This document shows positions 5,896-11,213 of a DNA stretch of 32,954 nt, in pieces. Position numbers and translations under genes: made by a program. Positions within the stretch are counted from its first letter, which is position 1. Every line of letters starts with the position of its first letter. Below the pieces are notes generated by a model, which did not search any database, was not told where the DNA came from, and worked only from the letters and a program-made list of their open reading frames with translations. The DNA comes from Campylobacteraceae bacterium (lineage in GTDB: Bacteria; Campylobacterota; Campylobacteria; Campylobacterales; Sulfurovaceae), in assembly GCA_027036015.1 (NCBI GenBank), contig JALVTH010000041.1, positions 1 through 32,954 on the forward strand, read 5' to 3'.

Positions 5896-6452
5896 TAAAA
5901 CTCCAACCAAGGTATAATATATTCTACTGGCAGACCCATAGCTGTGCTCTCTAAACCTTGCACGCTTTTAATATATTTTTTACAAAAACCCTCAACCATA
6001 CAAGCTCCAGCCTTTCCTTGCCACTCTTTGCTTTGCAAATACTCATCTAAATCTTTTGTATCAAAAAGAGCAAAGTTATAATAGGTTGCAAAAATACCAC
6101 TAAATTCAAGTTTAGTAGATTTTAAAATCACTCCCGTAATAATTGCAACGGTATTATTGCTTTGTTTTAATAAAATCTCTTTTGCTTCCTCTTTATTTTT
6201 GGCTTTTCGCAAAATCTCTCCATCTTTAGTTGCAACTACACTATCTGCAACTAAAAGAGGAGTTTCATCTATCCCATAAAGCACAATCGCTCTTTGTAAT
6301 TTCCCTTTAATAGCCTCATATACAAAACTTTTTGCATTTATAGCTTTAATTTGCTCTTCGTCAAAATCAACGCTCACTTGCTCAAAATCAATATTAAACT
6401 TTTTTAATAATTTTGCTCTAGTTTTTGAAGATGAAGCAAGTTTTACTTTCAT
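5895..6452 (-). CDS. maf: Maf-family nucleotide pyrophosphatase
   Basis: A 185-residue Maf/HAM1-like protein starting with KLASSSKTRAKLL, the family's phosphate-binding N-terminal motif, followed by LVADSVVA (metal-binding aspartate) and the C-terminal GLPVEYI. Family members hydrolyse non-canonical or modified nucleoside triphosphates (dTTP, UTP or m7GTP, depending on subgroup) and have been linked to septum inhibition. Which substrate this one uses cannot be judged. The gene overlaps the protease upstream by 4 bp and the BioF-like gene downstream by 1 bp. From memory, maf next to alaS is conserved in Campylobacter and Helicobacter. Confidence 0.9.
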   Translation of the reverse strand: MKVKLASSSKTRAKLLKKFNIDFEQVSVDFDEEQIKAINAKSFVYEAIKGKLQRAIVLYGIDETPLLVADSVVATKDGEILRKAKNKEEAKEILLKQSNNTVAIITGVILKSTKLEFSGIFATYYNFALFDTKDLDEYLQSKEWQGKAGACMVEGFCKKYIKSVQGLESTAMGLPVEYIIPWLEF

Positions 6453-7489
6453 TCATCAAGTCCTACTAACTTAATTGGAATGACTATTCGTTTATGTCCT
6501 CGCAAAATCTCAAGCTTTACAACATCTCCAATTTGTTTGTTATCTAAAATATCATCTAAATCAGCAATGGAGTTAACCTTTTTCCCATCAACTTTTACAA
6601 TAATATCGCCAAATTCTATTGTTCCATCAGCATAAATTGTTGCTGGAATTAAAGGAATGGCTGCAGCTGGTGTATTTGCAATAACTCCTAAAACTGCTAC
6701 ACCATTAATTCCATAAACATCATGCAAATATTCATTAACTCTTTCATCAACCTCAATTCCAATTGAAGGTTTAATGTAATGTCCAAAAAGAATAATTTTT
6801 GTAACAACTCTTTTTACTAAATTAATAGGAATTGCAAAACCAATCCCTACACTTGCATTTATTGGACTATAAATTGCGCTACTAACTCCTACAACTTTTC
6901 CACTGCTATCTAACATTACTCCCCCGCTATTACCAGGGTTAATTGCCGCATCGGTTTGAATGGCTTCACTAATGTAGCTCCCATCGCTTGAAGGAACACG
7001 GCGATGTAGAGCCGAAACGATTCCTTTTGTCATTGTCCAACTTAATCCAAATGGATTTCCAATAACATAAACGTTTTGTCCAACTTGCAACTTATCGCTG
7101 TTGCCTAAACTAACTGGCTTTAATTCATCTTTGGGTGCATTTATTTGCAACACAGCAATATCTCTTTTAGGATAGACTCCAACTAAAGAAGCCGCATAAC
7201 TTTTCCCATTAAATAACTTTACTCTTGCACTATTTGCACCCCTTATTACGTGATAATTGGTAACAATATGTCCTTTTTTATCCCATACAAAACCGCTTCC
7301 ACTCCCTTTTGGAATAGTATAACGCGTGAGGGTATTGTAATCAATAATTTTAGAAGAGGTAGAAATATAAACGACGCTTTCTTTATTTTTTTTAAAAATA
7401 GCAATATTTTGCTTTTCTTCTTGATTTAATCCATTAGCACAAGAGGCAAAAAAGAGAAAAAAAAGAAAGCCAATCCAAACTCTTTTCAT
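6449..7489 (-). CDS. DegQ/HtrA-like trypsin-type serine protease with one PDZ domain, probably a lipoprotein
   Basis: A 346-residue S1C protease. The catalytic triad is visible as His80 (NYHVIRG), Asp110 (RDIAVLQ) and Ser188 (NPGNSGG). One PDZ domain covers about residues 240-345 ([13 protein letters not shown]). The N-terminus is a signal peptide ending in FASC (Cys17), which fits a lipobox, so the mature enzyme may be lipid-anchored on the periplasmic side. One PDZ makes it DegS-like in layout, but it lacks an uncleaved anchor, and two-PDZ DegP/DegQ is the usual Campylobacterota HtrA. It lies between alaS and maf with 4-bp overlaps on both sides. Likely role: envelope protein quality control. 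Confidence 0.88.
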
Positions 7490-10047
7490 TGTACTTTACT
7501 TTTAACGAACTCTTTAGCCTTTTTCATTGCCTCTGGTAAAGCACCAAGTTCCTTACCACCTGCTTGAGCAAAATCGGCTCTTCCTCCACCGCCTCCTTTT
7601 AAAATTGGAGCAATTGCTTTAATCCACTCTCCAGCATGCACCTCACACCCTTTAGCGCCCGCTGCTAAGAGGACTTTATTCCCTTTTACTTGAAAAAGCA
7701 TCACTGCTACTTTTTCATAACGATTTTTTAAATCATCAACGATTGCTTTAATATCGCCTGCTTCAATCTTATCAACAAATATTTTTACACCATTAACCTC
7801 AAAACTTTCTAACTCTTTTTTATTAGCACTTAGTGCTGCTTGAAGCTCTCTTTTTAACTCTTTTATTTGATTTTTTAATTTATTAATTGCTCCAAGTGCA
7901 TCTTGCGCTTTTAACTCTTGCTTAATTACTTCAAGCTCTTTGTTTTGCTCTTTGGCATACTCGTAAGCCGCTTTTGAAGCAACTGCTTCTATTCTTCTAA
8001 CCCCACTACTTACGCCACTTTCTTTTACTATATAAAAAGAGCCAATCTCAGCCGTATTTTTAACATGCGTTCCACCACAAAGCTCAATTGAGGCATCTTC
8101 CATTGCTACGACTCGAACCTCGTTGCCATACTTTTCACCAAAAAGTGCAACAGCGCCACTTTTTTTTGCCTCTTCAAGCGGCATAATTTTAGTCGTTACA
8201 TCAATTGCTCTTTGAATTTTATCGTTTACCCAATCTTGCACTTTTAAGAGTTCTTCTTTGCTCAGTGCTTTTGGATGAGTAAAGTCAAAACGAAGCTTTT
8301 TATCGTCATTAAGCGATCCAGCCTGCGTTACATGCTCTCCTAAAATAGCTCTTAGGGCTGCATGCAAAAGGTGTGTTGCAGAGTGGTGTCTTGCAATTTC
8401 TCTTCTTTTTTGATCAACGATTGTTTCTACCTCATCACCAACTTTTAACTCTCCTTGGACTTTACTTAAATTTACATCATTAAATTTTTGCGTATCAAGC
8501 ACTTTAGCTTTTGTTTTACCACTTAAAGCATCTTTCAACTCGCCCTCATCACCAATTTGTCCACCACTTTCTGCATAAAATGGAGTCTTTTCTAAATAGA
8601 CCCATCCTTCATCATCAATACTATCAACCAATTTAAAATCTTTATCCATCAAAGCTAATACTTTTGTTTTAACTTGCGTCGTTTCATATCCTACAAATTG
8701 GTTTTGTCCATATTTTTCTTTTAACTGCTTAAATTCACCTTTAGCAACACTATCACCACTTCCTTTCCAATTAGCTTTCGATTTTGCTCTTTGCTCTTGC
8801 ATCTTTTCTTCAAAACCTTGTAAATCTAAAGCAATACCCTTTTCTCTTAACATATCTTGCGTTAAATCAAGTGGAAAGCCATAGGTATCGTAGAGCTTAA
8901 AAGCAACCTCTCCACTAAAAGTTTTATTTGTTTTTTTCAACTCTTCTTCAAAAAGTTTAATTCCAGCTTCAATCGTTGCAAAAAAGCGCTCCTCTTCTTG
9001 TTTCATCGCTTCTTTAACAGCAGCAGCTTGAGTAATTAAATAATCGTATGGATCTTTCATAATATCAACCAAAGTATCCACCAATTTATACATAAAAGGC
9101 TCTCTTAAGCCCAAAAGATACCCATGGCGAATGGCACGGCGCATGATTCTTCGCAAAACATATCCTCTTCCTTCTTTATCAAAAAGCACACCTTGAGCCA
9201 ATAAAAACGTGGTTGAGCGCAAATGATCGGCTATTACGCGATAACTTGCAATCGTTTTTTCATCTGGCTCTTTGCCAACGATTTGAGTAATTTTATCAAT
9301 AATTGGGCGAAACAAAGAAGAATCAAAATTGTTAAAAACTCCTTCTTTAATGGCAACGACTCTCTCAAGCCCCATTCCTGTATCGATACTTGGTTTTGGA
9401 AGAGGATGAAGATTGCCTTGTTCATCTCTTTCATATTGCATAAAAACAAGGTTCCATATCTCTAAAAATCTATCACCTTCACCTCCCATTATATCTTGGG
9501 GAGAATTAAAATGCTCTGCTCCTTGATCATAAAAAATTTCACTACAAGGTCCACAAGGTCCAGTATCACCCATTTGCCAAAAGTTATCTTTATCCCCAAA
9601 GCGCAATATTCGCTCTTGGCTTACAAACTTTTTCCAAATATTATATGCTTCATCATCACTCTCATGCACCGTAACCCAAAGTCTATCAATTGGTAAATTC
9701 AAATACTCTTTACCAGTAACAAACTCCCAAGCATATGCAATTGCCTCTTCTTTAAAATAATCACCAAAACTAAAATTTCCAAGCATTTCAAAAAAAGTAT
9801 GATGTCTTGCGGTATAGCCAACATTGTCTAAATCGTTATGTTTTCCTCCAGCTCTAATACAAGTTTGGCAACTTGCGGCTCTTGGTGGATTTGGAATAGG
9901 CTCTTGCCCAGTAAAAATTCCTTTAAATTGCACCATTCCAGCATTGGTAAAAAGCAAGCTATCATCCTTTGGCACCAAAGGAGAGCTTGGAACAATTTTG
10001 TGTCTTTTGTTTGCAAAAAAATCTAAAAACATTTTTCTAATGTCCAT
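7486..10047 (-). CDS. alaS: Alanyl-tRNA synthetase
   Basis: An 853-residue class II synthetase charging tRNA-Ala. The catalytic domain begins with [20 protein letters not shown] and contains [18 protein letters not shown]. The editing domain carries [13 protein letters not shown] and CGGTHV, the zinc-binding residues that clear mischarged Ser and Gly. A glycine-rich C-Ala domain follows at the end. The length is near the usual 850-880. The ATG at 10047 has an AGAGGG ribosome site about 10 nt upstream. The gene heads the six-gene run down to PBP1A and is linked to the protease by an ATGA overlap. Confidence 0.97.
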
Positions 10048-10076
10048 ACAAAACCCTCTTTAAAGAAATTAGAGTA

Positions 10077-10082
10077 ATTTTA
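10077..10082 (-). promoter_or_regulatory. Candidate -10 box for alaS
   Basis: TAAAAT on the minus strand inside GATAAAATTAC, about 30 nt ahead of the alaS ATG and after a run of six T's. It would let alaS be transcribed separately from the hairpin-bearing RNA upstream. No good -35 is seen, as is usual in this phylum. Confidence 0.35.
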
Positions 10083-10105
10083 TCAAAAAAGTGTTAAATA
10101 GGGAT

Positions 10106-10128
10106 TAATAAAGGCTCAAAATGAGCCT
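10106..10128 (-). terminator. Weak intrinsic terminator or attenuator hairpin between murG and alaS
   Basis: A perfect inverted repeat, AGGCTCA and TGAGCCT with a 3-nt loop, followed on the minus strand by TTATTAAT. The stem is good but the T-tract is interrupted, so termination may be partial. On the plus strand it is followed by A's and cannot terminate. Confidence 0.45.
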
Positions 10129-10166
10129 AAGAAAAAAGGAGAGGATGAAACGCGTAGTAGGAGGTA
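10106..10166 (-). ncRNA. Candidate small RNA or alaS leader with anti-Shine-Dalgarno tracts
   Basis: On the minus strand a consensus TATAAT (10178-10173) would start an RNA near 10166. The RNA contains ACCTCCT (complement of 10159-10165) and CCTCTCCTT (complement of 10136-10144), both complementary to ribosome-binding sites. It then ends in a perfect 7-bp hairpin (AGGCTCA, loop TTT, TGAGCCT at 10128-10112) and a short T-rich stretch. This layout fits a roughly 60-nt small RNA, but it could equally be a 5' leader of alaS or the 3' end of the murG transcript. A 15-codon reading frame (10174-10127) overlaps it and its stop codon sits at the base of the hairpin. Confidence 0.35.
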
Positions 10167-10199
10167 GAATGCATTATAATCATATCTTTTTTTTGTGCA

Positions 10200-11213
10200 C
10201 TATTTGTGGAGCTTCTCAAGGAGTGCAGCAAGTTCTTTTGATCCATTTGGAGAGTTGAGTTTTAAGAGTTTTTTACTCATTTTTTTTAAATTAATATTAT
10301 CTAAAATTTCTAATACTCTTTCTACTTTTAATTCATTTTCTCTTAATAAATAAGCCGCTTGTTGTTCTACTAAAAATTTTGCATTGTAATATTGATGATC
10401 ACTTGTAGCATATGGATATGGCACAAAAAGCGTTGGAAGAGCATTTGCTACAAGCTCCCACAAAGTGGAAGCCCCAGCTCTTGCAATAGCAAAATCAGCT
10501 CTGCTCATAATTACTGCCATCTCCTTGCTAAAACCAAAAACTTCTGCCTCAATACTTAATTTCTCATACTCTTTTTTTACCCATTCAAGATGCTTTTGCC
10601 CAGCTTGATGAATAATCTTAATACCTCTTTTTTGAAGATGTGGAGCTAACTTAAGAGCAAATTCATTGAGGCTCTTTGCACCTTGTGAACCCCCACTAAT
10701 TAAAATAGTAATAAGCTTGTTTCTTACTCTTGCTGTATCAAAAAAAATCTTTTTGGTTGCATAAGCTTTTATTGGCGAAGTAGGATCGTAACTTGAGATA
10801 AAGTATTTTGCAAAGGGGCGTAATAGCTTATTTAAACTTCCAACAGCTGCATTTTGTTCATGAATGACAAGAGGAATTTTTAGTAAAATTGCAGCAATTG
10901 CAGCTGGAGCTGCAGAATACCCTCCAACGCTAAAGACTACTTTGGCATTTTCCTTTTTTAAAATCTCTTTTGCTTCCCATGCTTGTTTAAAAATTTGTAA
11001 AAGAGCAAAAATTTTAGTAATTCCACCTTTATTCATCACCCCTTGAGAATCTAAAAAATAGGTAGCTTTAAAACTTTTATCTCCTTCAAACCAAGCTCTA
11101 TCTTGCCCTCTTGTCGAACCAATATAGACTAAATCACTTTTTAAATACTCTTTTATAGCAGCTATAATTGCCAAGTGCCCGCCCGTTCCTCCACCAGTTA
11201 AAACAATACTCAT
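10200..11213 (-). CDS. murG: UDP-GlcNAc:undecaprenyl-PP-MurNAc-pentapeptide GlcNAc transferase
   Basis: A 337-residue GT28 glycosyltransferase that converts lipid I to lipid II on the inner face of the membrane. The N-terminal glycine-rich loop GGGTGGHL and the second-domain segment ISGGSQGAKSLNEF are the donor and lipid-phosphate loops of MurG. ARAGASTLWEL and PYPYATSDHQYYNA match the family's UDP-GlcNAc site. The ATG lies 4 bp inside the end of ftsW (ATGA), so the two are coupled. ftsW-murG is a classic dcw pair, retained here although the rest of the cluster is absent. Confidence 0.96.
   Translation of the reverse strand: MSIVLTGGGTGGHLAIIAAIKEYLKSDLVYIGSTRGQDRAWFEGDKSFKATYFLDSQGVMNKGGITKIFALLQIFKQAWEAKEILKKENAKVVFSVGGYSAAPAAIAAILLKIPLVIHEQNAAVGSLNKLLRPFAKYFISSYDPTSPIKAYATKKIFFDTARVRNKLITILISGGSQGAKSLNEFALKLAPHLQKRGIKIIHQAGQKHLEWVKKEYEKLSIEAEVFGFSKEMAVIMSRADFAIARAGASTLWELVANALPTLFVPYPYATSDHQYYNAKFLVEQQAAYLLRENELKVERVLEILDNINLKKMSKKLLKLNSPNGSKELAALLEKLHK

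Follow-up and report, generated by a model that had tools for sequence, protein, structure and literature searches.

A putative small RNA gene with C/U-rich tracts between murG and alaS of a Sulfurovaceae bacterium, behind a predicted promoter box that also precedes envelope genes

The murG-alaS intergenic region

The DNA analysed here (the window, 32,954 nt in full) is contig C41 of a 1.69-Mb genome, labelled G000, and the relatives found through alaS were Sulfurovum, Nitratifractor and 'Campylobacteraceae' MAGs. A gap of 152 nt separates two minus-strand open reading frames, which from their sequence we take to be murG and alaS, and this gap probably holds a small RNA (sRNA) gene, the RNA of which is unlikely to be translated into protein. 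The features of the region, in the direction of transcription, are:

10200..11213, minus strand: murG, upstream neighbour (open reading frame and homologs)
10194..10209, minus strand: candidate direct-repeat regulator box CCACA-N6-GCACA, an 11-bp repeat with the sequence CCACAAATAGTGCACA (pattern and profile matches)
10179..10184, minus strand: -10 element TATGAT, 9 bp past the box (alignment A3, in which 12 promoters line up without gaps)
10173..10178, minus strand: TATAAT, possible alternative -10 or start-proximal sequence
10105..10172, minus strand: predicted sRNA of ~68 nt (ends deduced from promoter spacing and hairpin)
10159..10165, minus strand: first C/U tract ACCUCCU (ACCTCCT), anti-Shine-Dalgarno (anti-SD)
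10132..10147, minus strand: second C/U tract CAUCCUCUCCUUUUUU, anti-SD and anti-AUG, exact complement of the model start region AAAAAAGGAGAGGAUG
10112..10128, minus strand: perfect 7-bp terminator-like hairpin AGGCTCA-TTT-TGAGCCT (sequence and folding)
10077..10084, minus strand: separate alaS promoter core, -10-like, GATAAAAT, downstream of the hairpin (kept in 8 of 9 genus genomes)
7486..10047, minus strand: alaS, downstream neighbour (open reading frame and homologs)

The box (10209–10194) overlaps the murG stop codon and gene end, and TATGAT (10184–10179) directly precedes TATAAT (10178–10173). The second tract, also given as CATCCTCTCCTTTTTT, lies between ACCTCCT and the hairpin on the minus strand and contains CCTCTCCTT (10144–10136, minus strand); TTTATTAATC is found directly 3′ of the hairpin, and the U-tail is weak. 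The predicted RNA (10172–10105) folds as the 7-bp hairpin alone (-9.5 kcal/mol; z = -3.0, with 2 of 200 shuffles equally stable) and leaves the C/U part unpaired, including the anti-SD and anti-AUG sequence CAUCCUCUCCUU in the MFE structure. The initial annotation had described the TATAAT, the two anti-SD tracts and the perfect hairpin on this strand, as well as a separate -10 for alaS downstream of the hairpin, and all of these were found where it placed them, the last as GATAAAAT at 10084–10077. A gene in the alaS operon (6449–7489, minus strand) encodes, as judged by eye, a trypsin-like, HtrA-type secreted protease, and thus puts a gene of the envelope-stress type near the sRNA.

Promoter homology and the predicted start site

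Twelve promoters could be aligned without gaps (alignment A3), with the box, a 9 bp spacer and the -10. A first profile, built from 8 alaS-type sRNA promoters which all came from genomes other than G000, scored the window site at 20.8 bits, with the next best site in the window at 7.7 bits, and none of 3,950,760 third-order Markov positions reached 20.8 bits. When the box pattern was searched, the window site was the best match in G000 (1 mismatch), and the pattern gave 11 matches versus 3 in a control read backwards. A broader model of 11 promoters with the window left out (R1) detected the window site at E = 0.019 for genome G000, which is weaker than with the 8-promoter profile; the site scored 19.2 bits under the broader profile, with ~0.2 sites of ≥18.9 bits expected per genome on a simulated background. 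A plain σ70 scan returned 10 sites versus 8.0 ± 3.3 expected, and the window sRNA promoter was not among these.

The transcript is expected to start at ~10172 and not at 10166, because TATGAT is the -10 that is in register with the relatives, and TATGAT together with the box, rather than TATAAT, probably determines it. The RNA of ~60 nt proposed originally, made from TATAAT with a start near 10166, stands as a predicted short RNA, and its start gives way to a predicted one that would make it ~68 nt.

Related sRNAs upstream of alaS in the genus

Of the 11 further genomes in the genus, seven (G003, G005, G006, G007, G009, G010 and G011) were found with the loop TTTCTTCTCCTCC to have a predicted sRNA, and ATTTCTTCTCCTCC or a near-identical loop was present in all seven. 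In six of these genomes (G003, G006, G007, G009, G010 and G011) the sRNA with its C/U-rich loop is located upstream of the adjoining alaS gene, and a convergent gene takes the place of alaS in G005. The order murG, a gap of 298–443 nt with an sRNA-like element, then alaS was seen in G003, G007 and G010, which is at least three among the 59 murG neighbourhoods of relatives, part of which were inspected, and one gene lies between murG and the sRNA in G011. There was no such element in the stretch read upstream of alaS in G002 nor in the 283 nt available in G004, and G001, G005 and G008, where the region upstream of alaS is not readable, stand outside this count. The alaS core GATAAAAT is present in 8 of the 9 genus genomes with a readable alaS upstream region, the ninth (G011) having GGTAAAAT. 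The G011 locus (L050 1427–1762) has two tandem sRNA copies upstream of alaS with different 5′ hairpins, and the sRNA sequence of L065 is identical to that of G006. Matches to the loop pattern occurred in 22 of 99 genomes, with those in the 7 of 11 other genus members being in an sRNA context; the remaining matches, and extra ones in G005 and G010, were judged by eye only to be coding or 23S sequences.

The relatives share an anatomy of box, 9 bp, -10, 6 nt, a first hairpin (ACCAAT/ATTGGT type), optional hairpins and a hairpin 3 with the C/U loop, often followed by a further one whose loop contains CTCCTCC. The stem of hairpin 3 keeps 5–6 of its 6 pairs in 7/7 sequences, and five of the six pair columns have changes on both sides among these seven sequences; G003 and G010 differ (arms entered manually, with a check of their order in the loci). 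The window has the promoter of the family (box, 9 bp and -10) and lacks the C/U loop TTTCTTCTCCTCC in a stem, the exact loop having no match in G000; folding showed that the two stems of the family are absent from the window copy, the tracts of which are different and unstemmed. Covariation of the stem across related genera, raised in the initial annotation, was found for the stems of the relatives, and the window copy does not have these stems.

A BLAST search of G000 with the window sRNA gave the self-match as the only convincing one. In Rfam, the window had no match at the gathering score and 10040–10230 none up to an E-value of 1, and ten loci of relatives likewise gave none at the gathering score; their single sub-threshold match (anti-hemB, 24.7 bits versus a gathering score of 49.5) was treated as chance. 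There was no report of the family among the matches listed in a search of the open-licence literature for sRNAs of Sulfurovum/Sulfurovaceae. The window gene appears to belong to a hitherto nameless family of regulatory RNAs of deep-sea vent-type bacteria, which has its box in common with envelope genes.

The hairpin is also rightly placed to be the terminator of the murG operon, with the C/U tracts being a functionless 3′ UTR, and the window copy is degenerate when compared to the relatives; we consider this improbable, since a specific promoter box is located between murG and the tracts, and the relatives keep the C/U loop in stems of changing sequence.

A second sRNA in G000

A second predicted sRNA in G000 (C51:43953–44114, plus strand; L198 2954–3115) has the same box promoter, the C/U loops CATTGTTTCCTCCTCCCC and TTTCCTCCCCC and a strong terminator, and is better structured than the window copy (fold z = -6.7). 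It lies between a divergent gene that is acetyltransferase-like and an ORF of 94 aa, which in turn follows an enolase-like gene. The class-2 stem pattern was sRNA-like in G000 and G002 only, and also matched in 20 other genomes of the 60 searched, where the matches were assessed, if at all, on the sequence letters listed.

With all features present in the C51 paralog, and neither the stems nor the canonical loop at the window locus, the latter may be a decaying pseudo-copy, stripped of its stems, with the second sRNA taking its place; as it still has its promoter, its terminator-like hairpin and its C/U tracts, we rate this as less probable again than a murG terminator. The least probable of the alternatives is that the box promoter drives alaS, with alaS transcription regulated and the short RNA only its attenuated leader: the element does lie upstream of alaS in 7 genomes, G000 included, but in 8 of 9 genomes alaS has a conserved promoter core of its own past the hairpin, the sRNA of G005 precedes a convergent gene, the second G000 sRNA and the G002 sRNA sit elsewhere, and the frame from the in-register ATG contains one alanine codon. 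The conserved promoter box, the sRNAs upstream of alaS in six other genus genomes and the separate alaS promoter core all back the initial suggestion of a free-standing short sRNA gene independent of alaS.

The box precedes envelope and regulator genes

Searching the 12 genomes with R1 gave 22 sites with E ≤0.1 beyond the 11 training sites, with ~1.2 expected. Seventeen of the 22 were read, the window site included, and 15 of the 16 others are located shortly before an ORF start, the exception being G009 C28; 14 of these 15 placements were made by script, and the one at the contig end (G007 C94) by eye. Pfam assigned box-preceded proteins to LolA (E = 4e-13), YfdX (7e-37), DUF2059 (4e-16; box site E 0.18) and redoxin (1e-11; box site E 0.27). 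A YceI label was dropped as Pfam gave no match, and a 'PpiC' label was sub-threshold in Pfam (18.1 versus 27 bits). Judged by eye, similar genes follow the box in pairs of genomes, namely a secreted protein in G003 and G007, a glycine-zipper-like lipoprotein in G005 and G009, and a thioredoxin-like protein in G000 and G007.

Two response regulators, RR1 and RR2, both with receiver and Trans_reg_C domains in Pfam, are encoded behind the box. RR1 is OmpR-type and is followed by a histidine kinase (G000 C23:36400–39500, L402), and the box before it scored 22.1 bits in G000, 19.5 in G008 and 18.9 in G004; there was no box before RR1 in G003 and G007, two of the five genus genomes with RR1. G004 and G008 also have RR2-like genes; in the RR2 operons that were read, the box scored 17.8 bits in G000 and 20.8 bits in G006. 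With R1, the site of RR1 in G000 reached E = 0.016, and the regulator-gene sites of G008, G004 and G006 only 0.5–0.8. The RR2 operon (G000 C34, L398; G006 C42, L403) encodes the response regulator and a small CxxC protein, which is metal-binding-like by eye and has no Pfam match, and an MsrA-like gene is found near the RR1 pair in G008 and G004, with its own box in G004. In four of the seven genomes with the alaS-type sRNA (G005, G009, G010 and G011; completeness 95, 80, 96 and 63%) there was no response regulator with >43% identity to RR1 or RR2.

Searches for target mRNAs

The model target of the window RNA had 122 matches with ≤3 mismatches in G000, versus 69 with a reversed control; no site other than the locus itself had fewer than 2 mismatches, and no target stood out. 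Thirty of the matches were inspected, some of which are at gene starts (a tsf-like gene, a lipoprotein gene and others, named by eye). For the target of the relatives' loop, counts in 12 genomes were approximately equal to those of the reversed control. For 26 local start regions, the duplex energy of the window RNA did not improve on that of shuffled sequences (-10.07 versus -9.99 ± 0.53, with 83/200 shuffles as good), and the second sRNA did slightly better on the same 26 regions (7/200 shuffles as good).

One lipoprotein, with repeated units rich in tyrosine, lysine and proline (L344–L354, L361), occurs in 12/12 genus genomes and in 5 of 29 others, and has no NCBIfam family. Its start region is AAGGAGAAGAAATG in 6 of the 12 genomes (G001, G005, G008, G009, G010 and G011); in G003 and G007 the spacing is shorter or longer, whereas G000, G002, G004 and G006 have another sequence there. 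The canonical loop is present in G006 and the lipoprotein site absent, and the lipoprotein site is present in G001 and G008 where no sRNA was found; therefore the sRNA and the lipoprotein site do not clearly coevolve. As the target tests were weak or negative, we place the existence of the sRNA gene well above any proof of its action.

Proposed function

The reading we prefer, with moderate confidence, is a trans-acting sRNA that blocks translation as part of an envelope regulon under two-component control and works like a streptococcal csRNA, and this confidence covers jointly the view that the window RNA represents a shortened form within a family of sRNAs of this genus, usually found upstream of alaS. 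It builds on promoter homology, synteny, the terminator-like hairpin, the unpaired C/U tracts, the covarying stems of the relatives and the box shared with envelope and regulator genes, all of which are read from sequence; from these we infer transcription, the identity of the regulator (RR1 and/or RR2) and the repression of targets. Activation would be from a class-II position, as with other OmpR-type regulators. An OmpR-family response regulator (RR1 and/or RR2) would bind the 11-bp direct repeat, which would take the place of the -35, and would probably switch the promoter on. A short RNA of ~68 nt would then be made from its own promoter and end at the hairpin, and its unpaired 5′ part would expose the two C/U tracts, one of which complements a Shine-Dalgarno sequence plus AUG. 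By pairing with SD and AUG, these tracts would probably keep the translation of some mRNAs from starting, and the same regulator would meanwhile induce envelope genes. A wider possibility, which we regard as doubtful, is that in this phylum, where the studied C. jejuni has RpoD and next to it only RpoN and FliA, a two-component system of the OmpR type governs an envelope-stress regulon whose repressive arm consists of sRNAs directed against start regions. These would shut down the synthesis of abundant envelope proteins such as the genus-wide lipoprotein (AAGGAGAAGAAATG at its start in several genomes), as sigma-E sRNAs do in enterobacteria.

Most of what is known about sRNAs in Campylobacterota comes from H. 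pylori and C. jejuni. The preferred reading yields testable predictions for the regulator, the start sites and the loops, and if true, C/U-rich sRNAs and envelope genes are tied together in one box-defined regulon, in bacteria related to the studied C. jejuni, which is without a dedicated envelope sigma factor; RpoN and FliA are given as its sole additional sigma factors (PMC11187230).

Comparison with known systems

The initial annotation likened the C/U-rich regions to RepG-type regulators of Helicobacter. RepG and Campylobacter CJnc230 are trans-acting sRNAs of the same phylum, but RepG is described as binding homopolymeric G-repeats in a leader, and the likeness is at most a functional parallel; CJnc230 has a single-stranded potential anti-SD (CCUU) and differs in being RpoN-linked.

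The DccR repeat of C. jejuni, wTTCAC-N6-TTCACw, resembles the window box, and the DccRS regulon is not known to include an sRNA. Compared by description, DccRS resembles the system proposed here: the regulator is OmpR-like, and its small regulon comprises its own gene and genes for periplasmic or membrane proteins (PMC7118207, PMC9449129).

CcsR and cuckoo RNAs carry CCUCC-type loops, and their tandem copies are reminiscent of those in G011. The alphaproteobacterial CcsR1–4, a tandem set of homologous sRNAs of the stress response, arise by processing of a ccaF1 (DUF1127) transcript that is made from an RpoHI/RpoHII promoter (PMC10253847), whereas the sRNAs described here each have their own predicted box promoter, and the neighbours of the window sRNA are murG and alaS.

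Compared by description, the streptococcal csRNAs are the best functional match for the predicted sRNA. These belong to another phylum and have another box and other hairpins: PMC3091779 gives the direct-repeat site of the CiaRH regulon as TTTAAG-N5-TTTAAG, unlike the CCACAA-type 11-bp repeat found here, and reports CAU in 53/61 csRNAs. The two stem-loops that flank the unpaired part of csRNAs are absent from the window copy, which has the 3′ hairpin only, while the relatives have several hairpins. Alike are the several short sRNAs per genome behind an OmpR-type direct-repeat site and the unpaired anti-SD, often with anti-AUG (CAU); this unpaired anti-SD and anti-AUG is present in the predicted window RNA, with CAU at the tract there and in 6 of the 11 related and paralogous copies. 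If the preferred reading is true, csRNA-like control would have a second example, independent of the first, in free-living vent relatives.
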